This document shows positions 53,860 to 64,000 of a stretch of DNA of 64,000 nt, piece by piece. The notes under the pieces were generated by a model. It was not told the origin of the DNA. It saw nothing but the letters and a program-made list of their open reading frames with translations, and made no database searches. A program made the translations under genes and the position numbers. The stretch comes from Streptomyces sp. NBC_00464 (lineage in GTDB: Bacteria > Actinomycetota > Actinomycetes > Streptomycetales > Streptomycetaceae), in the NCBI RefSeq assembly GCF_036013915.1, contig NZ_CP107899.1, positions 806,001 to 870,000 of the forward strand. Direction: 5' to 3'. Every line of letters begins with the position of its first letter. Within the stretch, counting starts at the first letter, position 1.

Positions 53860-54034
53860 CTCCCCGCCTCCCCTGACCCGACCTCAACTCCATTGGAGTG
53901 AAAGGGACTTCGACACGCGACACCGTCGTTGTCATGCCCCGAACAGATGGATACCCTGAGCGGGCTTCGCGGCCCCTCTGCCCACCCCACCCGGGCGCGG
54001 GGCCGTTCTTCTCCCCCACAGAGCAGGAGCAGGT

Positions 54035-55588
54035 ATGCCCACACGCGCCGCCGCCCACACCAAGGCCCGCGCTTCCGTGCTGGCGGCCCTCACCGCCACC
54101 GTCCTGGCCGCGACCGGCACCCCGGCCCTCGCCTCGACGGACACCGGGCACCCGATGAACCGGGCGTTCGAGCAGGCGGCCGAGACGTTCGACGTCCCGC
54201 GCGATCTGCTCGCCGCCGTCGGATACGGCGAGACCCGGCTCGACGGCCACTCCGGGCGCCCCAGCCAGGCCAACGGCTACGGCATCATGCACCTGGTCAG
54301 CAACCCCACGAACCGGACCCTGGAGCGGGCCGCCACCCTCACCGGGACGCCCCTGGCCGAGCTCCGCTCCGACACGGCGGCCAACATCATGGGCGGCGCG
54401 GCGGTGCTGCGCGGTTACGCGGACAGGCTCGGGCTCGACGCCCGGGACCGCGACGACCTCGGCTCCTGGTATCCGGCCGTCGCCCGCTACAGCGGCACCG
54501 AGGGGGCCGCCGCCGCCCTCTACGCCGACACGGTCTACACCTTCCTGGCGGACGGGCTGGACGCCGTCTCCCCGGACGGCGAGCGGATCTCCGTGACGGG
54601 GCGCCCGGTGTCACCGCACAAGGGTGCGCTCACCGCCGCGGACGTGAGCACCCGGAGTGCCGACTACCCGTCGGCGCTCTGGGTCCCGGCGAACGCGAAC
54701 AACTACGCCACGGGCCGCTCGGCGGCGATCGACAAGGTGGTCATCCATGTCACGCAGGGCTCGTACGCGGGCTCGATCAGCTGGTTCCAGGACCCGGCGT
54801 CCGAGGTGAGCGCCCACTACGTGGTGCGCTCGTCGGACGGCCAGATCACCCAGATGGTGCGTGACAGCGACACCGCCTACCACGCACGGAGCGCCAACGC
54901 CTCGGCGCTCGGCATCGAGCACGAGGGGTTCATCGACGACCCGTCCTGGTTCACGGACTCGATGTACCGGTCATCGGCGGCCCTGACGGCGTATCTGTGC
55001 GACCGGTACGGCATCCCGAAGGACCGGGCGCACATCATCGGGCACAGCGAGGCACCGGGCAACGACCACACCGACCCGGGCCCGTACTGGGACTGGACCC
55101 GCTACATGGAGCTGGTCGGCGGGAGCACCGGCGGCAGTCCCGGCGCGGACGGGCTGAGCTTCACCGCGTACGCGACACAGCAGAGCGGGTCGACGGGTGC
55201 CCAGGTCAAGGCCGTTCAGACGCTGCTGAACGCGCAGGGCTATCCGGCGGGCGAGGCGGACAGCAGCTTCGGCACGGCCACGCAGAGCGCGGTGAAGGCG
55301 TTCCAGACCGCGCGCGGGCTGGAGGCCGACGGCGTGGTGGGGTCGAAGACGTGGACGGCGCTGCTGTCCGCGGGCACCACGCCCACGCTCGCCGAGGGGG
55401 CTTCGGGTGACGGCGTGAAGCGGCTCCAGCGCGCGCTGACCGCGGCGCTCGGCTCGACGGTCGGTGTCGACGGGAGCTTCGGGCCGGGGACGGCCACCGC
55501 GGTGCGCAGCTACCAGACCGGCCGGGGCCTGACGGCCGACGGCATCGTGGGTCCGGGCACCTGGGCGGCGCTTCAGGCGGGCCGCTGA
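54035..55588 (+). CDS. Secreted N-acetylmuramoyl-L-alanine amidase with lysozyme-like and PG-binding domains
   Basis: 517-residue peptidoglycan hydrolase. A Sec signal peptide ends near PALAST. Residues ~40-170 resemble a transglycosylase/SLT-like domain (FDVPRDLLAAVGYGETRLDGH...GYGIMHLV), with a candidate catalytic Glu in GYGETRLDG. An Amidase_2 domain (about 215-360) follows, with VVIHVTQGSYAGSISWFQ, SAHYVVRSSDGQI and HSEAPGNDHTDPGPYWDW, containing the zinc-binding histidines. Two PG_binding_1 repeats close the protein (GAQVKAVQTLLNAQGYP; GDGVKRLQRALTAAL). ATG 54035 has AGGAG at 5 nt. Cell-wall remodelling enzyme. Confidence 0.9.
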   Translation: MPTRAAAHTKARASVLAALTATVLAATGTPALASTDTGHPMNRAFEQAAETFDVPRDLLAAVGYGETRLDGHSGRPSQANGYGIMHLVSNPTNRTLERAATLTGTPLAELRSDTAANIMGGAAVLRGYADRLGLDARDRDDLGSWYPAVARYSGTEGAAAALYADTVYTFLADGLDAVSPDGERISVTGRPVSPHKGALTAADVSTRSADYPSALWVPANANNYATGRSAAIDKVVIHVTQGSYAGSISWFQDPASEVSAHYVVRSSDGQITQMVRDSDTAYHARSANASALGIEHEGFIDDPSWFTDSMYRSSAALTAYLCDRYGIPKDRAHIIGHSEAPGNDHTDPGPYWDWTRYMELVGGSTGGSPGADGLSFTAYATQQSGSTGAQVKAVQTLLNAQGYPAGEADSSFGTATQSAVKAFQTARGLEADGVVGSKTWTALLSAGTTPTLAEGASGDGVKRLQRALTAALGSTVGVDGSFGPGTATAVRSYQTGRGLTADGIVGPGTWAALQAGR

Positions 55589-55598
55589 CGGAGACGGC

Positions 55599-55639
55599 CG
55601 AAAGGCGGGGCGGTGCGCACGGCACCGCCCCGCCTTTCG
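55599..55639 (+). terminator. Terminator after the amidase gene
   Basis: CGAAAGGCGGGGCGGTGC and its exact complement (18-bp arms, 5-nt loop) begin 11 nt after the stop codon. Confidence 0.88.
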
Positions 55640-55897
55640 CGCGCCCCGGCCCACGCGCCGAACGCTCCCGGCCCCGGCACCGGAACACCCCCGTCGCACC
55701 CGCCTCGATGCTCCTGCAGGGATCACGGGTGATCGTGACGGAGAGGCGGTTCGGAACGTGGCGCCCAGGCCTGAGACGCGGGAACGGCCGGCGGGTGCGG
55801 CGCCGGCCGCGCCGGGCGGCGGGCGGCCTGGACGGGACCGCCGGGGCGGCCGGTCATCAGCCGGACGGCCTGGTGCCGCTCGGCCTATCATGACGCA

Positions 55898-56575
55898 ATG
55901 AAGTTCGTGATGGTGCCGGGTGGTTGGCAAGGTGGATGGGTGTTCGACTCCGTGGCCGCCGAACTGCGCCGAGCCGGTCACCACGTCGAGGCCGTGACGC
56001 TGTCGGGGCTGGAGCCTGACGGCCCGGCCGATCCGGGCCGTCCGCCGAACCTCGACACCCATATCGACCAGGTGGCCGAGATCATCGACCGTAGCGACGG
56101 AACGCCCCTGGCACTGTGCGGGCACAGCTACGGCGGAATGGTGATCGCCGGTGTCGCGGACCGGCTCGGCGACCGCATCGACCAGCTCGTCTTCATCGAC
56201 GCCTACGTCCCGGACGACGGGGATTCGTGCTGGTCCCTGACCAGCGACAGTTTCCGGGACCTGTTCATCGCCGGCGTACACGCCGACGGCCGTTGGGTCG
56301 CCGTCCCTGACGGGCTCGACCCCCGCGCGCGACCGCACCCACTCGCCAGTTTCGTTCAGTCGATCAGGCTGAGGGCGAAGCCCGGGGACGTGCTCGGCCG
56401 AACCTTCATCAGCGGTGGCGCGTGGCCGGGCAGCCCGTTCGCGGACCTGCCCGAGCGGTTGCGCAGCGACTCGGCCTGGCGGGTTCACGAGATTCCCGTG
56501 GGGCACAACATCGCCCGCCGCGACCCGCACAGCCTCGCGGCCCTTCTCGGCACACTGGCGCCCGGCTTCGCCTGA
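55898..56575 (+). CDS. Alpha/beta hydrolase, hydroxynitrile-lyase/esterase-like
   Basis: 225-residue alpha/beta hydrolase of the MES/HNL-like group. The oxyanion opening is MVPGGWQGGWVFDSVAAELRRAGH, the nucleophile elbow CGHSYGGMVIAGVADR and the catalytic His in IPVGHNIARRDP. The likely -10 TATCAT lies 6-8 nt before the ATG, suggesting leaderless expression. Substrate unknown. No operon partner. Confidence 0.85.
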   Translation: MKFVMVPGGWQGGWVFDSVAAELRRAGHHVEAVTLSGLEPDGPADPGRPPNLDTHIDQVAEIIDRSDGTPLALCGHSYGGMVIAGVADRLGDRIDQLVFIDAYVPDDGDSCWSLTSDSFRDLFIAGVHADGRWVAVPDGLDPRARPHPLASFVQSIRLRAKPGDVLGRTFISGGAWPGSPFADLPERLRSDSAWRVHEIPVGHNIARRDPHSLAALLGTLAPGFA

Positions 56576-56612
56576 CGCGCGGCCGCCGCCCACAGCGCCG
56601 TGCCACCGCCGC

Positions 56613-56655
56613 GTTCGCCTTCGCCTTCGCCTTCGCCTTCGTCTTCGTCTTCGTC
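56613..56655. repeat. TTCGCC/TTCGTC hexanucleotide tandem repeat
   Basis: Seven contiguous hexamers (TTCGCC, then TTCGTC) form a 43-bp microsatellite-like tract between the hydrolase and the glp operon promoter. In the minus frame it encodes alternating Gly/Asp-Glu; I do not call a gene. Confidence 0.75.
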
Positions 56656-56730
56656 GGGATGGACGCTCGCCGGGGCGTGGATCCACCCCCATGGGCTCTT
56701 CGTCACGTTTGGGTAACCTGCCGGAAACCC

Positions 56731-56760
56731 TTGACGTTTCTCCTGACGTCTTCCTAACCT
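56731..56760 (+). promoter_or_regulatory. Promoter of the glycerol-3-phosphate operon
   Basis: -35 TTGACG (56731-56736), 18-bp spacer, -10 TAACCT (56755-56760). This predicts transcription from about 56767 and a leader of roughly 139 nt before the first start codon at 56906. Confidence 0.65.
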
Positions 56761-56784
56761 CCTCGTGTAGTCGCTCTTCACGTG

Positions 56785-56862
56785 CTGCGGCGCTTTCCGC
56801 AGTGTTTTGACAGGCACAGACATAGACCACCTGTCGGTGGTTTCGTCATGCCTGTTTTTTTT
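56785..56862 (+). promoter_or_regulatory. Leader with intrinsic terminator, candidate GlpP antitermination target
   Basis: A first hairpin CTGCGG-CGCTTT-CCGCAG (56785-56802) is followed by a longer rod: ACAGGCA (56810-56816) pairs with TGCCTGT (56849-56855), GAC with GTC, and ACCACC-tgtc-GGTGGT closes the tip. It ends in TTTTTTTT (56855-56862). A U-tract of this length is very unusual in such a GC-rich genome. It lies between promoter and first gene, so read-through must be regulated. The operon encodes a GlpP-type antiterminator, making this its likely RNA target. Confidence 0.75.
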
Positions 56863-56905
56863 GTGCTCCCCGTGCCGCCGATGGGTCTTCCTCGAAGGCG
56901 GATTC

Positions 56906-58342
56906 ATGGCACAACGTCCGAGCGTCAAAGGCGTCGCCGACGTCGTTGCGCTCATCGATGGGCTGGGAAAGATCACCGGCCGGGCGCAAGTCATCTGGTT
57001 CCTCGTGTTCGGCGGGCTGTTCCTCGACGCCTATTCGAATGCGGCACTGAGCGCCGGTCTGGGACCGATGACGTCCCAGATGGAGCTGACCAGCACGCAG
57101 GTCTCGATCCTCACGGCCACCGCTCCGGCCCTGGCGATCATCTTCAACCCGGTCGGCGGCTGGCTCGCCACCCGGATCGGCCGGGTCCCCCCGCTGCTCA
57201 TCGCCAAGGTCTTCGCCATCGCGGGCGCCCTGATCGCCGCGTTCGCCGGTGACTTCACGGTCGTCTGGGTCGGCCGGGTCCTGGTGGGAGTCGCGTACGG
57301 CATCGACTTCGCCGTCGCCATGGCCCTGCTCGCCGAGTACACGCCCGCCAAGCTCGGCGGCCGGCTGAACCTGTGGCAGGCCGTCTGGTACGTCGCCACC
57401 ACCAGCAACCTCGCGCTCGCCCTGATCTTCTTCAACCTGGACGTCGGCGCGGACATCTGGCGCTGGTCGGTCGGCTCGGCCGCCGTGGTCGCCGTGGCGC
57501 TGCTCGTGGGCCAGTGGCTGATGCTCAGGGAGAGCCCCACCTGGCTGGCGAGCAAGGGCCGCCTGGACGACGCCGTCCTCAACCTGGACCGGATCTACGG
57601 CATCAAGGCGGTCGCCGGAAAGCCGGACGCGGCGACCCGCGCCGCGACCGCCGCACCCGCCATCGGCTTCCGCCAGGCCGGACTGCTCTTCAAGGGCGAG
57701 TACCTGCCGCGCACGATCCTCTCCTCGGTCATCTCGCTCGGGCAGTCGATGCAGTACTTCGCGGTCGGCTGGTATCTCCCGCTGATCAGCCTGACGATCT
57801 TCGGCGAGAGCTTCGAGAAGGCCACGATCGGCTCGATGGTGTTCAACGCCTTCGGTATCGCGGGCGGGCTGCTGTCCGCGTACTTCGGCCGCAGGCTCGG
57901 ACTGCGGCTCAGCTCCGCCGCCGGATTCGCCGGGGTGTTCGTCGCCCTGATCGCGATGGGACTCACCTTCGAGAAGGTCCCGACGGCCGTGGCGTTCCTG
58001 CTGCCGGTGCTGTTCATCCTCTGCCACTCCGCCGGCCCCGGCGCCAACGGCAAGTCCATCGCCGCGCTCTCGTACAGCAGTGATGTGCGCGCGCTCGGCA
58101 CCGGTGTCACCGGGATGGTCGGCAGCTTCGGCAGTGTCGCCGGGCTGTACCTCTTCCCGCAGATCAAGGAGTCGCTCGGCCTCGCCGACACCTTCCTGGT
58201 GCTCTCCGTCGTCCCGCTGCTCGGCATGATCACCTGTCTGGCCATCAAGTGGGACCCGATGAAGGCCGCTTCGCCCGACGAGGCCGCGGCGGAGCAGGCA
58301 GCAGAGGCGCAGGAACACGCGGAGTCCGTCACCGCGCGCTGA
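56906..58342 (+). CDS. MFS transporter, first gene of the glp-like operon
   Basis: 478-residue major facilitator with about 12 transmembrane helices. Sugar-porter-type motifs: IFNPVGGWLATRIGRVPPLL (loop 2-3), GRVLVGVAYGIDFAVAMALLAEYTP and GGLLSAYFGRRLGLRLSSAAGFAG. GAAGG lies 7 nt before ATG 56906. An upstream in-frame ATG at 56807 would place the terminator inside the coding sequence and is rejected. In this operon the natural substrate could be glycerol, a glycerophosphodiester or a glycerol ether; not determinable from sequence. Confidence 0.88.
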   Translation: MAQRPSVKGVADVVALIDGLGKITGRAQVIWFLVFGGLFLDAYSNAALSAGLGPMTSQMELTSTQVSILTATAPALAIIFNPVGGWLATRIGRVPPLLIAKVFAIAGALIAAFAGDFTVVWVGRVLVGVAYGIDFAVAMALLAEYTPAKLGGRLNLWQAVWYVATTSNLALALIFFNLDVGADIWRWSVGSAAVVAVALLVGQWLMLRESPTWLASKGRLDDAVLNLDRIYGIKAVAGKPDAATRAATAAPAIGFRQAGLLFKGEYLPRTILSSVISLGQSMQYFAVGWYLPLISLTIFGESFEKATIGSMVFNAFGIAGGLLSAYFGRRLGLRLSSAAGFAGVFVALIAMGLTFEKVPTAVAFLLPVLFILCHSAGPGANGKSIAALSYSSDVRALGTGVTGMVGSFGSVAGLYLFPQIKESLGLADTFLVLSVVPLLGMITCLAIKWDPMKAASPDEAAAEQAAEAQEHAESVTAR

Positions 58343-58425
58343 CCGTCCGCCGTGCCTGCCGCACCACACGATGGTCCCTTCTCCCCCTCCGTACAGCTCG
58401 CGATGCTCGCAATGAAAGGGCTGCA

Positions 58426-59970
58426 ATGACGCAGACGCTCCCCGGCGCCTCCCCCCGGCGCGGTGTGCTGGCCATCGACGAGGGCACCACCGGCACCAGG
58501 GCCGGAGTCGTCCTCGACTCCGGCGCCGCGCACGAGGTGTTCTACCGGTCGATCGCGGTCAGCCATCCGGACGACCTCTCGGTCGAGCAGGATCCGATGG
58601 AGATCTGGACCGCCACCCTCGACGTGGCGCGCCGGGCCGTCGGCGCCGCCCGGGCGGAGGGGATCGAGCTCACCGCCGTCGCCCTCTCCACCCAGCGGGC
58701 CACCGCGATGCTCTGGGACCGGGTCACCGGGCAGCCGCTGCTGCCCGCCGTGGTGTGGCAGGACCGGCGGTACGCCGCCGAGCTCACCGCGCACGAGGCG
58801 AAGTGGGACGCCGTTCTCACCGCCCGTCAGGGCCGGCCGGTCGGCGCCCGCGCACCGTTCCTCTGGGCCGCCCGGCAGATCGCCGCGCACCCGGCGGTGG
58901 CCGCCGCGCACCGCGAGGGCCGGCTGCTCTTCGGCACCGTCGACACCTGGCTGATCTGGCGGCTGACCGGTGGCGCCGTGCACGCCACCACCCCGACCAA
59001 CGCCGCGTCCAGCGGGGGTTACCTGCTGGAGCGGCACGCCTGGGACGAGGAGTGGATCGGCCATCTCGGCTTCCCCCTCGACCTGCTTCCGGAACTCCGC
59101 TCGGACGACGCCGGATTCGGCATCACCGACCCGGCCGCCCTCGGCATCGCCGTCCCGCTGGCCGCCTCCATGGGCGACCAGCACGCCGCACTGATCGCGC
59201 TCGGCGGCCTGGCCGCCGGGCAGGGCATGTGCATGTACGGGACCGGCGCGTTCGTCGACGCGGCGACCGGCACCACGCCCGCCCTGCCCCGGCCGGACAT
59301 CTCCGGGGTGCTCGCCCAGCCCGGCCGGCGGCAGGGCGACATCAGCCACTACAGCCTGGAGGCCTACACCTCCACGGCGGGTTCGGCGCTGCGCTGGCTC
59401 TGCGACGACCTGGGCCTGTTCGCCTCGCCGAAGGAGCTCGGTGAGGAGGCCGGCCGGGTCCCCACCCGGCCGGGCCGCACCCCTCGTTTCGTCCCGGCGC
59501 TCGCCGGGGTCCGTACGCCGGTCTGGCACCCGGAGGCCACCGCCTCCCTCACCGGGCTCACCCTCGCCACCACCCGCGCCGATCTGGCCCGCGCCGTGCT
59601 CGACGGGATCGCGCACTCGGTGTGCGACCTCGTCGACGGGGTGGCCGCCACCATGGGCGCCCCGTTCACCCGGCTCCGGGTCGGCGGCGGAGTCGCGGGC
59701 AGCGACCCGCTCATGCGGATCCAGGCCGACCTGACCGGCCTCCCGCTGGAACGGGTCGCCGACTCGGCAACCGCCAGCCTGCGCGGCACCGCCTATCTGG
59801 CCGGGGTCGCCCAGGGCCTGTGGGGCTCGCTGGAGGAGATCGTCGAGGCGCAGCCGCACGGCCGGGTCTTCGAACCCTCCACCGGCGCGGACGATCGCGC
59901 CGAACAGCGGGCCGCCTGGCGCGACGTGCTGATCGGCCACCTCAAGGACCCCGCACTCACCCCCCACTGA
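58426..59970 (+). CDS. FGGY-family carbohydrate kinase (glycerol kinase-like)
   Basis: 514-residue kinase that would phosphorylate glycerol or a similar polyol. The N-terminal phosphate loop is VLAIDEGTTGTRAGVVLD (glycerol kinases usually read DQGTT). The second domain has MGDQHAALIALGGL and GQGMCMYGTGAFVD; the C-terminal FGGY signature is the LRVGGGVAGSDPLMRIQADLTGLPLERV stretch. Because of the Gln-to-Glu change and other differences I avoid the symbol glpK. GAAAGGG is 5 nt before the ATG. It lies 83 nt after the MFS gene. Confidence 0.88.
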   Translation: MTQTLPGASPRRGVLAIDEGTTGTRAGVVLDSGAAHEVFYRSIAVSHPDDLSVEQDPMEIWTATLDVARRAVGAARAEGIELTAVALSTQRATAMLWDRVTGQPLLPAVVWQDRRYAAELTAHEAKWDAVLTARQGRPVGARAPFLWAARQIAAHPAVAAAHREGRLLFGTVDTWLIWRLTGGAVHATTPTNAASSGGYLLERHAWDEEWIGHLGFPLDLLPELRSDDAGFGITDPAALGIAVPLAASMGDQHAALIALGGLAAGQGMCMYGTGAFVDAATGTTPALPRPDISGVLAQPGRRQGDISHYSLEAYTSTAGSALRWLCDDLGLFASPKELGEEAGRVPTRPGRTPRFVPALAGVRTPVWHPEATASLTGLTLATTRADLARAVLDGIAHSVCDLVDGVAATMGAPFTRLRVGGGVAGSDPLMRIQADLTGLPLERVADSATASLRGTAYLAGVAQGLWGSLEEIVEAQPHGRVFEPSTGADDRAEQRAAWRDVLIGHLKDPALTPH

Positions 59971-60048
59971 CGGCCCCTCACCGTCAGCAGGCGGCGGCCG
60001 GACACCCGACCACGCGGCCGCCGCACCGAACCACCAGGAGTTGATGTT

Positions 60049-61722
60049 GTGATCACCATGCCCGCCCGGAAACCGCGGCGCACCGCCGCGGCGACCCGCC
60101 GCACCCCCCTGCTGCTCGACCGCGCGGCGGCCAAGCGGCAGCTGGCCGACGACACGTACGACGTACTCGTCATCGGCGGCGGCATCACCGGGGCGTACGC
60201 CGTGCTGGACGCCGCCTCGCGCGGGCTGCGCGCGGCGCTGGTCGAGAAGGACGACTTCGCCTCGGGCACGTCGTCGAAGTCCTCGAAGATGGTGCACGGC
60301 GGTCTGCGCTACATCGAGCAGGGCAACGTCAATCTCGTACGCCACTCGCTCCTGGAGCGGCACCGCTTCCGCAAGAACGCCCCGCATCTGGTGCACCGGC
60401 TGCCGTTCCTCTTCCCGATCCTGGAGAAGGAGGGCATCTTCGACGCCCGCCTCGCCAAGGGCTTCGAGGGTCTGCTGTGGACGTACGACCTGGTCGGCGG
60501 CTGGCGGATCGGCAAGCTGCACCAGCGGCTGACCGTCCCGGAGGTCCTCGCGCAGGCGCCGACGCTGCGCGCGGAGAACCTCAAGGGCGGGCTGATGTAC
60601 TTCGACGCCCGCACCGACGACGCCCGTCTCGTCCTGACCATCGTGCGGACCGCCGCCGCGCTCGGCGCGACCGTCCTGAACGGGGCGAAGGCCGAAGGCC
60701 TGCTGATGCAGTCCGGCAAGGTGGCCGGGGCCCGGGTCGACGTGGACGGTGACAGCGTCGACATCCGGGCGCGGGCCGTCGTCAACGCCACCGGGGTGTG
60801 GACCGACGAGCTGGACGCGAAGGCCGTCGACGGCCACCGCCCGCAGGTCCGCCCGGCCAAGGGCGTGCACATCGTGGTGCCGTGGGACAAGGTACGGATC
60901 AACTGCACGGTCACCGTGCCGATCCCCGGCCGGGCCCGCCGTGCGACCTGCACCCGCTGGGGCAACAGCGTCGTGCTGGGCACCACGGACGAGGACTACC
61001 AGGGCTCCCCCGACGATGTGCACTGCACGCGTCAGGAGATGGACTTCCTGCTGGAGGGCGCCAACACCGCCTTCGAGGGGAAGCTCACCCCGGACGACGT
61101 GGTCGGCTCCATCGGCGGACTGCGTCCGCTGGTCGGCGGCAAGGAGGGCGCGACGCTCGACATGCGCCGCGACCACCACATCAGCGTCGGCCGCACCGGC
61201 ATGGTGACGGTGACCGGCGGCAAGCTCACCACCAGCCGCCACATGGGCGAGCTCGTCATCGACAAGGTGATGGCGGTCCTCGGCCGCAGGGGGAAGAGCC
61301 GCACCAGCGACCTTCCGCTGCTCGGCGGCGCCGGCTACGACGCCGAGGCCGTGGCCGCCTCCGGTGGCATCGCCGCACACCTGGGCGAGCGCTTCGGCAC
61401 CGAGGCGCGCTTCGTCGGCGACCTGATCCAGGAGGACCCGACGCTGGCCGAGCCCATCGTCGCGGGACTTGCCTACACGAAGGCCGAGGTCGTCTACGCG
61501 GCCCGCGCGGAGCTCGCCCGCTCGGTCGACGACGTCCTCTCCCGCCGCATGCGCGCCCGGCTCTTCGCCCGCGACGCCTCCGCCGAGGCGGCGGGCGCGG
61601 TGGGCGCGATCCTCGGCCGCGAACTGAACCTCACGGAGGCCGAGGTGGAGCGTTCCGTCTCCGACTACCTCGCGGCCGTCCGTCACGAAAAGTCCGTACT
61701 CCTCGAAGGGGCAGCAGCATGA
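60049..61722 (+). CDS. glpD: Glycerol-3-phosphate dehydrogenase (FAD-dependent, respiratory)
   Basis: 557-residue membrane-associated flavoenzyme: glycerol-3-phosphate to dihydroxyacetone phosphate, electrons to quinone. The FAD dinucleotide fold VLVIGGGITGAYAVLDAASRGLRAALVEKDDFASGTSSKSSKMVHGGLRY is intact. Later blocks VVNATGVWTDEL, GTTDEDYQGSPDDV and VTVTGGKLTTSRHM are typical. The GTG at 60049 has AGGAG at 8 nt. A stem CTGACGG/CCGTCAG lies in the 78-nt gap before it. Stop codon overlaps the next start (ATGA). Confidence 0.94.
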   Translation: MITMPARKPRRTAAATRRTPLLLDRAAAKRQLADDTYDVLVIGGGITGAYAVLDAASRGLRAALVEKDDFASGTSSKSSKMVHGGLRYIEQGNVNLVRHSLLERHRFRKNAPHLVHRLPFLFPILEKEGIFDARLAKGFEGLLWTYDLVGGWRIGKLHQRLTVPEVLAQAPTLRAENLKGGLMYFDARTDDARLVLTIVRTAAALGATVLNGAKAEGLLMQSGKVAGARVDVDGDSVDIRARAVVNATGVWTDELDAKAVDGHRPQVRPAKGVHIVVPWDKVRINCTVTVPIPGRARRATCTRWGNSVVLGTTDEDYQGSPDDVHCTRQEMDFLLEGANTAFEGKLTPDDVVGSIGGLRPLVGGKEGATLDMRRDHHISVGRTGMVTVTGGKLTTSRHMGELVIDKVMAVLGRRGKSRTSDLPLLGGAGYDAEAVAASGGIAAHLGERFGTEARFVGDLIQEDPTLAEPIVAGLAYTKAEVVYAARAELARSVDDVLSRRMRARLFARDASAEAAGAVGAILGRELNLTEAEVERSVSDYLAAVRHEKSVLLEGAAA

Positions 61723-63272
61723 TCAGCCGTCAGACCATCACCCACCCGTTCAACCGGGGCAACTACACGATCGGCGCCCCCAGTTTCGCCAAGTGGGCGC
61801 AGAACACCCCGATCGGCGACGGGGAGGCCGCGCTCCAGGCCAACCCGGTCGAGGTCCCCGAGGCCGTGGTCGAGGCGCTGCGCGAGGCCGCGCACGCCGT
61901 GCACGTGGAGCGCGACGAGGTCGTCACCCGGACCCGTGACTGGTGGGCCGGCTCGATGATCGGTGAGACCGAGGGCCGTCCCGCGACGCCGGACGCCGTG
62001 ATCGTCGAGGCGGCCGACGCGGACCAGATCGCGGCCGTGCTGCGGATCTGCCACGAGGCGGGCATCCCGGTCACCCCGTCCGCGGGCCGCTCCAACGTCA
62101 CGGGGGCGGCGCTGCCCGTCTTCGGCGGGGTCGTCCTGGACGTGTGCGCGCTGAACGGGATCACCGGTTTCGACGCCGAGTCGAACGTGGTGGACGTCCA
62201 GGCCGGCATGTTCGGCGACCTCTTCGAGAAGCAGCTCCAGGAGGAGTACGGCGTCACGACGGGCCACTGGCCGTCCGCGTTCGCCGTCTCCACGGTCGGC
62301 GGCTGGATCGCCTGCCGCGGTGCGGGTCAGCTCTCGACGCGCTACGGCAAGATCGAGGACATGGTCGTGGGCGTGGACGTGATCCACGCGGACGGCACCC
62401 GCGCCACGTACGGCGACTACGCCCGCGCGGCGGTCGGCCCGGACCTGCGCCAGCTGTTCATCGGCTCCGAGGGCACGCTCGGCGTCATCGTCTCGGCCCG
62501 GCTGCGCGTCCACCCGCTGCCCGAGTACGCGAACGCGGTCGCGTTCGGCTTCGAGACCTTCGCCGAGGGCCTGGACGCCTGCCGCAAGATCATGCAGCGC
62601 GGTGCGACCCCGGCTGTCCTGCGGCTGTACGACGCCCTGGAGTCGGGCACCCACTTCGGCCACCCGGAGACCAATCTTCTGCTGATCGCCGACGAGGGCG
62701 ACCCGGCGATCGTGGACGCCTCGATCAAGGTGGCGGCCGAGGTCTGCTCCGCGTACGGCCCCGAGCTGGACTCCCAGGCCGTCTTCGAGCGCTGGCTGGA
62801 CGAACGGATGATCGTCGGCAAGTCCGCCGACGGCTTCACGCCCGGCCCCGGCTTCGTCGCCGACACCCTGGAGATGGCGGCCTCCTGGGCCGACCTCCCG
62901 GTGATCTACGACGAGGTCGTCGCCGCGATCCAGTCGGTGGAGGGCACCCTGGCGGCCTCGGCCCACCAGTCGCACGCGTACACCGACGGCGCCTGTGTCT
63001 ACTTCTCGCTGCGCGGCGAGGTGGCGCCCGAGTCGCGGCGCGACTGGTACCGCTCGGTGTGGGACGCGGCCAACGCCGTACTCATCAAGCACGCCGCGGC
63101 GCTCAGCCACCACCACGGCTGCGGACTGCTGCGCGGTCCCTACCTGGAGGAATCCCTGGGAGCGGGCTTCGCGACGTTCGTCGCGGTGAAGGCGGCCCTG
63201 GACCCGGCCGGCATTCTCAACCCTGGCAAACTGGGTCTTCCCAGCCGATTCGGTACGTCTCCGCTGAACTGA
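61719..63272 (+). CDS. AGPS-like FAD-binding oxidase
   Basis: 517-residue protein of the VAO-type flavoprotein family, close to alkyldihydroxyacetonephosphate synthase. The FAD-binding region shows TPSAGRSNVTGAALPVFGGVVLDV and HWPSAFAVSTVGGWIACRGAGQLSTRYGKIEDMVVG, and the C-terminal substrate site includes ALSHHHGCGLLR. AGPS exchanges an acyl for an alkyl group on DHAP. Translational coupling (ATGA) to glpD, which makes DHAP, supports a role in DHAP- or glycerol-ether chemistry, perhaps catabolic oxidation rather than ether-lipid synthesis. This is inference. Confidence 0.85.
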   Translation: MISRQTITHPFNRGNYTIGAPSFAKWAQNTPIGDGEAALQANPVEVPEAVVEALREAAHAVHVERDEVVTRTRDWWAGSMIGETEGRPATPDAVIVEAADADQIAAVLRICHEAGIPVTPSAGRSNVTGAALPVFGGVVLDVCALNGITGFDAESNVVDVQAGMFGDLFEKQLQEEYGVTTGHWPSAFAVSTVGGWIACRGAGQLSTRYGKIEDMVVGVDVIHADGTRATYGDYARAAVGPDLRQLFIGSEGTLGVIVSARLRVHPLPEYANAVAFGFETFAEGLDACRKIMQRGATPAVLRLYDALESGTHFGHPETNLLLIADEGDPAIVDASIKVAAEVCSAYGPELDSQAVFERWLDERMIVGKSADGFTPGPGFVADTLEMAASWADLPVIYDEVVAAIQSVEGTLAASAHQSHAYTDGACVYFSLRGEVAPESRRDWYRSVWDAANAVLIKHAAALSHHHGCGLLRGPYLEESLGAGFATFVAVKAALDPAGILNPGKLGLPSRFGTSPLN

Positions 63273-63300
63273 CCCAGCACTCTTCCAGGCAGGTTTTGCC

Positions 63301-63960
63301 ATGCCCCCTTCCCCGTCCCGCTCCGGCGCCCCGCTCGATCCGCGGCTCACTTCGGCGTTCGCCGAGGTGCCCGTCATCGCGTCGGTCGTCGGCACCCAGC
63401 CGCTGCGGCAGTTCCTGACCGCACCGGCCAAGGTGTGCATCCTCGCTTCGTTCGCGGTGGGGCAGCTGCCCCAGGTCGTGCCGGCGCTGGGGCGGGCGGG
63501 GAAGCTCGTGTTCGTGAACGTGGACAGCAGCCCCGGTCTCGCGCAGGACCGGGGCGCGCTGGAGTTCATCAAGAACATGGGCGCCCACGGCGTGGTCAGC
63601 ACCCGGCTCTCGCTCATAGAGAAGGGCCGCCCGCTCGGCCTGCTGACGATGATGAAGGTGTTCGTCACCGACCGGTCCAATCTGCGCCGCTCCACGGACG
63701 CGATCGCGCGCGGGGCGCCGGACCTGGTCGAGATCATGCCCGCCCCGATCATCGCCCGGATGAGCGCGCAGGCCCAGCGCGCGATGTCCCCGTCGGTGGC
63801 CGCGGGATTCGTGGAGTCCCCCGCGGACGTGGCGCTCGCCCTGGCCCTCGGGTCGGCCGCGGCCGCCACGTCCGACCCCCGCCTCTGGCATCTGCGCCGC
63901 GACCAGCTGCCGCCGGTCCCGCCGGCCGCACTCAAGAGGCCAGTCCCACCCCAGGAGTAG
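63301..63960 (+). CDS. GlpP-type glycerol-3-phosphate-responsive antiterminator
   Basis: 219-residue regulator of the GlpP family, a TIM-barrel-like protein that in B. subtilis binds glycerol-3-phosphate and the glpD leader mRNA to prevent termination. Family features: VPVIASVVGTQPLRQFLTAP, ASFAVGQLP, LVFVNVDSSPGLAQDRGALEFIKNMGAHGVVSTR, a middle segment MKVFVTDRSNLRRS and the signature PDLVEIMPAPI. It starts 28 nt after the AGPS-like gene. The same operon has a leader with a terminator, giving an autoregulatory loop (inferred). It is unusual to find it in an actinomycete, where GylR-type control is the known mode. Confidence 0.82.
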   Translation: MPPSPSRSGAPLDPRLTSAFAEVPVIASVVGTQPLRQFLTAPAKVCILASFAVGQLPQVVPALGRAGKLVFVNVDSSPGLAQDRGALEFIKNMGAHGVVSTRLSLIEKGRPLGLLTMMKVFVTDRSNLRRSTDAIARGAPDLVEIMPAPIIARMSAQAQRAMSPSVAAGFVESPADVALALALGSAAAATSDPRLWHLRRDQLPPVPPAALKRPVPPQE

Positions 63961-63967
63961 TACCGAC

Positions 63968-64000
63968 GTGACATACGTAGTCGTAGCCCGCTACCGCACG
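63968..64000 (+). CDS. Start of a small monooxygenase-like (ABM) gene, truncated by window end
   Basis: GTG 63968 opens MTYVVVARYRT, a typical beginning of ABM-type putative quinol monooxygenases. Only 11 codons are visible, 7 nt after the GlpP stop, so the gene is probably the next member of the operon. Weakly supported. Confidence 0.4.
   Translation, partial: MTYVVVARYRT

Follow-up and report, generated by a model that had tools for sequence, protein, structure and literature searches.

Ahead of a five-gene operon of Streptomyces sp. NBC_00464 we identified a leader that is most probably a transcription attenuator controlled by GlpP, the antiterminator-family protein encoded by the last gene of the same operon. 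Leader and operon lie within a 64,000-nucleotide stretch of contig NZ_CP107899.1 (assembly GCF_036013915.1, positions 806,001 to 870,000 of the forward strand; hereafter the window, whose first letter is position 1), and the features of the window given below are on its + strand unless stated otherwise. Two mutually exclusive hairpins are predicted in the leader, a terminator rod running into eight T residues (T8) and a competing antiterminator that displays a purine repeat. Comparison with related and more distant sequences gives good, though not conclusive, support to an action of GlpP on this leader.

The sequence-only reading of this DNA had claimed a TTGACG-N18-TAACCT promoter and, between it and the first gene, a rod-like terminator with eight T residues, and both are present. 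The promoter, read directly from the sequence, comprises the -35 hexamer TTGACG (56731-56736), an 18-base spacer and the -10 hexamer TAACCT (56755-56760), and its column identity over 36 distinct leaders (six Embleya and Actinomadura leaders were excluded from this table) was 1.00 at the -35 and 0.91 at the -10 hexamer, compared with 0.49 further upstream. A consensus sigma-70 scan gave no sites in 54000-64000 and left this promoter unreported; the -10 hexamer agrees with TATAAT at three of six positions. Between promoter and first gene lies an intrinsic terminator, in which GACAGGCA (56809-56816) pairs with TGCCTGTT (56849-56856) to form the rod (56809-56856), and the final two paired bases of the rod are already T residues of the T8 tract (56855-56862). 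The predicted folding energy of the region 56805-56875 was -26.3 kcal/mol, whereas its shuffles averaged -15.0 (z -3.8) and 1 of 200 did as well. A simple terminator scan missed the rod, probably because its stem is interrupted, and reported three minus-strand sites compared with 2.3 expected.

Both arms of this terminator are overlapped by a predicted antiterminator (56809-56835), indicated by pairing, permutation and folding, in which GACAGG (56809-56814) pairs with CCTGTC (56830-56835) around the 15-base loop CACAGACATAGACCA; because the pairing uses both terminator arms, one structure excludes the other. Within the loop, the purine repeat AGAC-AT-AGAC (56818-56827) is the proposed GlpP recognition site. 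Across 46 leaders, proteobacterial ones included, CAG, AGA, AGAC and CTGT were invariant, and it is this second hairpin that accounts for the constancy of CAG and CTGT. Identity in the table of 36 leaders was 0.97 in the loop and 1.00 in the antiterminator 3' arm, compared with 0.80 in the T-tract. In the 46-row alignment, 97.5% of 276 antiterminator cells were paired, against 26-47% with slid partners, and three Burkholderiales rows replaced G-C by A-U on both sides of the stem. For a transcript ending at 56836 the predicted minimum-energy structure is the antiterminator, which the rod replaces by 56856. As the rod is the more stable of the two in the window leader (-25.9 kcal/mol, compared with -10.7 when constrained to the antiterminator), the antiterminator would persist only with a protein bound to it.

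If GlpP acts on this leader, as the sequence-only reading supposed, the hairpin should be kept in glpP-linked operons and should occur together with glpP, and it does both. Close relatives of the window GlpP (class B, class A being the other Streptomyces GlpP class) are encoded at 40 genome loci, and the order of transporter of the major facilitator superfamily (MFS), kinase, GlpD, oxidase and GlpP is kept in 37 of them, the contigs of the other three starting inside the operon. This order spans Streptomyces, Embleya and Actinomadura, recurs in Arthrobacter, Burkholderia (MFS incomplete) and Cupriavidus plasmid records, and holds for 8 of 10 more remote loci of the family to which Actinomadura belongs. 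Across 57 class-B loci (a set without L025, without L171 and without second copies of genomes already included) the hairpin was present in all 54 leaders that could be read, the exceptions L058, L063 and L071 being contigs that begin inside the operon. A further 199 genomes from the family of Actinomadura yielded ten new GlpP loci, nine with the hairpin; the tenth has a divergent GlpP and carries the class-A box described below. Within Streptomyces, PF04309 scored above cut-off in 15 of 199 genomes (13 with class B, 3 with the other class, 1 with both), and the exact 17-base core AGACCACCTGTCGGTGG was found in the same 13 genomes as class-B GlpP and in no other of the 199. This co-occurrence mainly reflects that the leader belongs to the operon, and its informative part is how little the leader changes.

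The exact core is single-copy in the window's genome, and one-mismatch matches stayed at background (11 in the 199 genomes, 14 for a reversed control). The looser pattern AGAC-N2-4-AGAC-N2-4-CTGT gave three matches in the window's genome, compared with two for its reversed control. Two loose candidates at an IclR-linked glycerol locus of this genome were rejected as chance: a match about 2.3 kb beyond glpD with at most four Watson-Crick pairs, and a repeat in the glpF-glpK gap with three pairs only, each without a T-run. Two further arrangements were observed in the collection. In Burkholderia arboris (L138:2457-3900), the hairpin and the MFS match downstream of it are about 1.4 kb apart and the match is missing its first 48 residues, which gives the impression of an insertion between the two, and at L171:8725-9700 the hairpin is followed by a short MFS match overlapping a partial match to the flavin adenine dinucleotide (FAD) oxidase, an apparent operon deletion or assembly fault.

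Leaders near other GlpP genes have a stem of different letters and a loop AGAGAY...GAGA or a close variant, AGAGAY-N-GAGA being the counterpart of AGAC-AT-AGAC, and on this comparison a competing antiterminator is shared between them and the window leader. The class-A box was found at Streptomyces loci L020, L021, L022 and L145 and at the divergent locus L174. The Streptomyces genome G175 encodes both GlpP classes, and the leaders beside them differ in loop type accordingly (AGAGAC..GAGA at L022, CAGAC..AGAC at L031), suggesting co-evolution of RNA loop and protein. In family f18 of the same phylum (L108-L126), a box like AGAGAY-N-AGAGAGAGCC with pairing arms lies just downstream of glpP and was recognized by eye in 17 of 19 loci, without the first-repeat pyrimidine in L109, L110, L111, L114 and L119, and with a degenerate box at most in L115 and L120; the gene after it reads as a glycerol kinase in L116, the sole locus translated. 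Beyond actinobacteria, we found the box at E. coli ygcW and yqcE (L162), at an Enterococcus MFS gene (L144, L163), in Peptoclostridium (L160) and at Cytobacillus glpF and, more weakly, glpD (L141), the Cytobacillus leaders standing in for B. subtilis DNA in the comparison of Firmicutes glpF and glpD leaders. In Paenibacillus (L143:7690-7850), GGTTT and AAACC enclose GAGACCAGGAGAC downstream of glpP and before an apparent HAD-type hydrolase gene, and a long terminator-like hairpin follows. The ygcW/yqcE intergenic region of E. coli (L162:15350-15690) holds two divergent leaders, both with a GlpP-type antiterminator and a T8-T9 terminator.

Although the letters of the stem differ between classes, its arms match. 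True arms of 13 chosen lineages scored 186, compared with 120 +/- 14 when the 3' flanks were swapped, and those of an 18-row set (near repeats L072, L172, L020 and L116 excluded, L022 included) scored 264, compared with 174 +/- 18 (0/100,000 permutations in each case). Where its relatives have GTTAC/GTAAC, the class-A leader of G021 has GTTGC/GCAAC. Over 16 GlpP loci (226,913 bases), a descriptor demanding a stem of at least 5, the motif in the loop and T5 downstream had 8 matches, compared with a mean of 0.45 and a maximum of 3 in 40 shuffles; over 20 control loci (58,927 bases) it had none. As it was shaped after some sites were known, and some of the eight come from related loci, it counts as support and not as an independent test. 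A scan of phylum loci for GAGAC hairpins was discarded as too noisy. Because the purine-loop antiterminator recurs across classes and phyla, the RNA is linked to GlpP rather than to this operon only.

Several observations weigh against attenuation by GlpP as a uniform account of these leaders. Class B by itself gives little covariation: of the six antiterminator pairs, one is altered on both sides (96 of 500 shuffles do as well), the 97.5% of paired cells compares with 96.5% in column shuffles, and further pair types number 2, below the shuffled mean of 3.1. The stronger covariation rests on comparison between classes, for which the permuted leaders were chosen for showing the loop motif. Paenibacillus L158, Acetoanaerobium L159, Vescimonas L161 and Planococcus L142, which were left out of that set, show no clear paired-stem box near glpP. 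The T-tract is also uneven, the longest T-run ranging from 1 to 8 across the 54 leaders. Directly after the hairpin, a run of at least three is absent in eight (Embleya L067-L068, Actinomadura L070, L072 and L073, Burkholderiales L138-L140); L069 makes a ninth, with no more than a T3 at a greater distance, and many others stop at three or four T residues. Five or more T residues follow the hairpin in 24 of 54 leaders as counted and in 28 after four (L048, L165, L166 and L167, each T5) were read directly from the sequence, the count under-reading where the fitted hairpin overruns the T-run (L042, L048, L165-L169). The T-tract is therefore not conserved in every lineage, and control in those without it may differ.

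The antiterminator is intact in the Embleya, Actinomadura and Burkholderiales leaders that lack the T-run, which favours an explanation in which GlpP binds the hairpin and acts mainly on translation or mRNA stability, the rod being inefficient as a terminator and the T-tract mattering only in some lineages. A further point against pure attenuation is a downstream helix predicted over part of the start region. All 15 leaders folded have it, 7 of them at z -2 or lower, and it leaves room for translational control; in addition, GlpP stabilizes glpD mRNA in B. subtilis, according to passages of PMC7430163 and PMC7509114. In the window this helix is predicted to take in part of the Shine-Dalgarno-like GAAGGCGGA (56894-56902), but it is weak and not significant there (z -0.75). 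Moreover, T5 or longer runs occur in about half of the leaders, distant ones such as those of Arthrobacter and L170 included, and in several GlpP leaders of other classes. Because the Arthrobacter and L170 leaders have T6, the terminator is taken as ancestral and lost in places, and we consider a role mainly in translation or stability unlikely. Far less credible is that the inverted repeat serves a repressor (of IclR type, for instance) as its operator on the DNA and that GlpP acts elsewhere. Such an operator would be plausibly placed just downstream of the promoter, and GylR controls Streptomyces glycerol genes (an excerpt of PMC9732521), but conservation of the inverted repeat is uneven, AGA, AGAC and CTGT of the 5' side and loop being invariant while the 3' side of the rod varies, and other GlpP leaders keep the pairing through different letters. 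No DNA-binding regulator was detected among the six genes scanned around the leader, nor an IclR gene among these and the two following genes. As for the alpha/beta hydrolase gene upstream (55898-56575), the hairpin does lie downstream of it on the same strand, but a conserved promoter separates the two and the hairpin accompanies the MFS-GlpP operon from genus to genus, so that a terminator serving the hydrolase gene is the least probable reading, close to negligible.

Under control by GlpP-dependent attenuation, RNA polymerase would start at the promoter ending at 56760, and the antiterminator GACAGG/CCTGTC could form early and display AGAC-AT-AGAC in its loop. GlpP would bind this loop when loaded with its inducer, for which glycerol-3-phosphate or a similar polyol phosphate is the likeliest candidate, so that the antiterminator is held, the rod is prevented and polymerase reads through into the transporter, kinase, dehydrogenase, oxidase and glpP genes. 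Without GlpP and inducer, the more stable rod would form and T8 would release the polymerase. Since glpP ends the five-gene set that it would control, the switch would have positive feedback. We infer the binding, inducer, termination and read-through from these features, and the structures are predictions of folding.

The sequence-only reading had also claimed a gene set with a GlpP-family protein and GlpD, which is borne out by five genes that we infer form one transcript. These encode an MFS transporter (56906-58342; profile match to Sugar_tr, PF00083), a glycerol-kinase-like FGGY carbohydrate kinase (58426-59970; 334 bits against a GlpK cut-off of 590), a GlpD-like FAD-dependent glycerol-3-phosphate dehydrogenase (60049-61722; 280 bits against a GlpD cut-off of 360), an FAD-binding oxidase whose nearest solved relatives are alkyl-dihydroxyacetonephosphate synthases (61722-63272) and the GlpP-family antiterminator protein (63301-63960; G3P_antiterm, PF04309, 139 bits, cut-off 27), which is related in sequence to the solved GlpP-family proteins 3kts and 1vkf. 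Only the kinase is clearly divergent, because the genome's other GlpD (288 bits) also scores under the cut-off. GlpF is not among the genes of the operon, and the same genome has a separate IclR-glpF-glpK-glpD locus (L188:3210-8299), with a kinase of 754 bits, and a further full-score glycerol kinase of 717 bits (G000:C1:6834656-6836134). With GlpF absent and an MFS transporter present, the kinase divergent, the oxidase resembling alkyl-dihydroxyacetonephosphate synthases and the IclR-linked locus elsewhere, glycerol is not secure as the substrate. A different polyol or a derivative of glycerol may be used in its place, and glycerol-3-phosphate or a relative may be the inducer. Of the earlier inference, the action of GlpP on the leader holds up by sequence comparison, but conservation of the T-tract and a secure glycerol substrate do not.

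Other features surround the switch. A small hairpin, GCTGCGG-CGCTTT-CCGCAGT (56784-56803; identity 0.96 in the 36 leaders), is kept in most Streptomyces leaders and was not seen in the printed Actinomadura and Embleya leaders; its first part has a possible alternative pairing downstream. Short TTCGCC/TTCGTC repeats lie at 56610-56660, between the hydrolase gene and the promoter. Downstream of glpP, the gene of an ABM-domain protein starts at 63968 and runs off the window at 64000, followed beyond it by a zinc alcohol dehydrogenase gene. A search of Rfam at the gathering score found no match in the window, and in eight further loci a single match, sok in L162, away from the leaders discussed.

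Taken together, the stem-loop beside GlpP genes recurs in other actinobacteria, Burkholderiales, E. coli and several Firmicutes, and the comparison yields a short RNA target open to binding and mutation tests. Tentatively, and with more doubt than confidence, one RNA element (a stem of about 5-9 bp, a loop of 13-19 bases and AGAY-N-AGA) might be the common recognition site of the GlpP family from Firmicutes to actinomycetes and proteobacteria, re-used for translation or mRNA stability where the T-tract is missing (Actinomadura, Embleya, Burkholderiales). The lineages without a T-tract offer a way to ask how an antiterminator becomes another kind of regulator, and the window itself a compact switch for high-GC actinomycetes that probably responds to a polyol phosphate. 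A further prediction of the comparison is that ygcW and yqcE of E. coli are under antitermination control by YgcP. Our literature search turned up neither a description of GlpP acting in actinomycetes or proteobacteria nor one of a general RNA target, the original GlpP papers not being among its matches, and no paper on YgcP antitermination of ygcW/yqcE, mere mentions of these genes not being covered.

Like the B. subtilis GlpP system of glpD, glpFK and glpT (described in part of PMC9604022), the window has a PF04309 protein, a predicted conditional terminator between promoter and first gene, and glycerol-3-phosphate-type genes downstream. In B. subtilis there is a yhxA-glpP transcript, according to a section of PMC3997798, whereas glpP of the window ends the gene set it would control. 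The window further differs in belonging to a high-GC actinomycete, in having an MFS transporter in place of GlpF and an extra FAD oxidase, and in its loop AGAC-NN-AGAC, and some lineages of its relatives are missing the T-tract. The E. coli ygcP cluster likewise combines a GlpP-family gene with nearby genes for MFS, FGGY kinase and FAD-binding oxidase proteins, and its ygcW and yqcE leaders have the stem-loop (AGAGAY...GAGA) and a terminator with T8-T9; unlike the window, this stretch has no GlpD but short-chain dehydrogenase/reductase and electron-transfer flavoprotein genes instead, and the two GlpP proteins are 24% identical. GylR is a DNA-binding regulator of the IclR type. It controls glycerol genes in the same genus (an excerpt of PMC9732521), and the present genome has an IclR-glpF-glpK-glpD locus. 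No stem-loop of the GlpP kind followed by a T-run was found there, in contrast to the window leader. BglG/LicT proteins form a family unrelated to GlpP, and their RNA motif is different. Like the proposed switch, they involve an antiterminator stabilized by protein (PMC7430163, in part). On the evidence, the circuit would work like GlpP antitermination of B. subtilis, having a GlpP-family protein, an intrinsic terminator and a predicted competing antiterminator. New are the finding of such a circuit in actinomycetes and Burkholderiales, within an operon carrying its own glpP, an explicit antiterminator whose purine-repeat loop is common to the GlpP classes, and the absence of the T-tract in some lineages.

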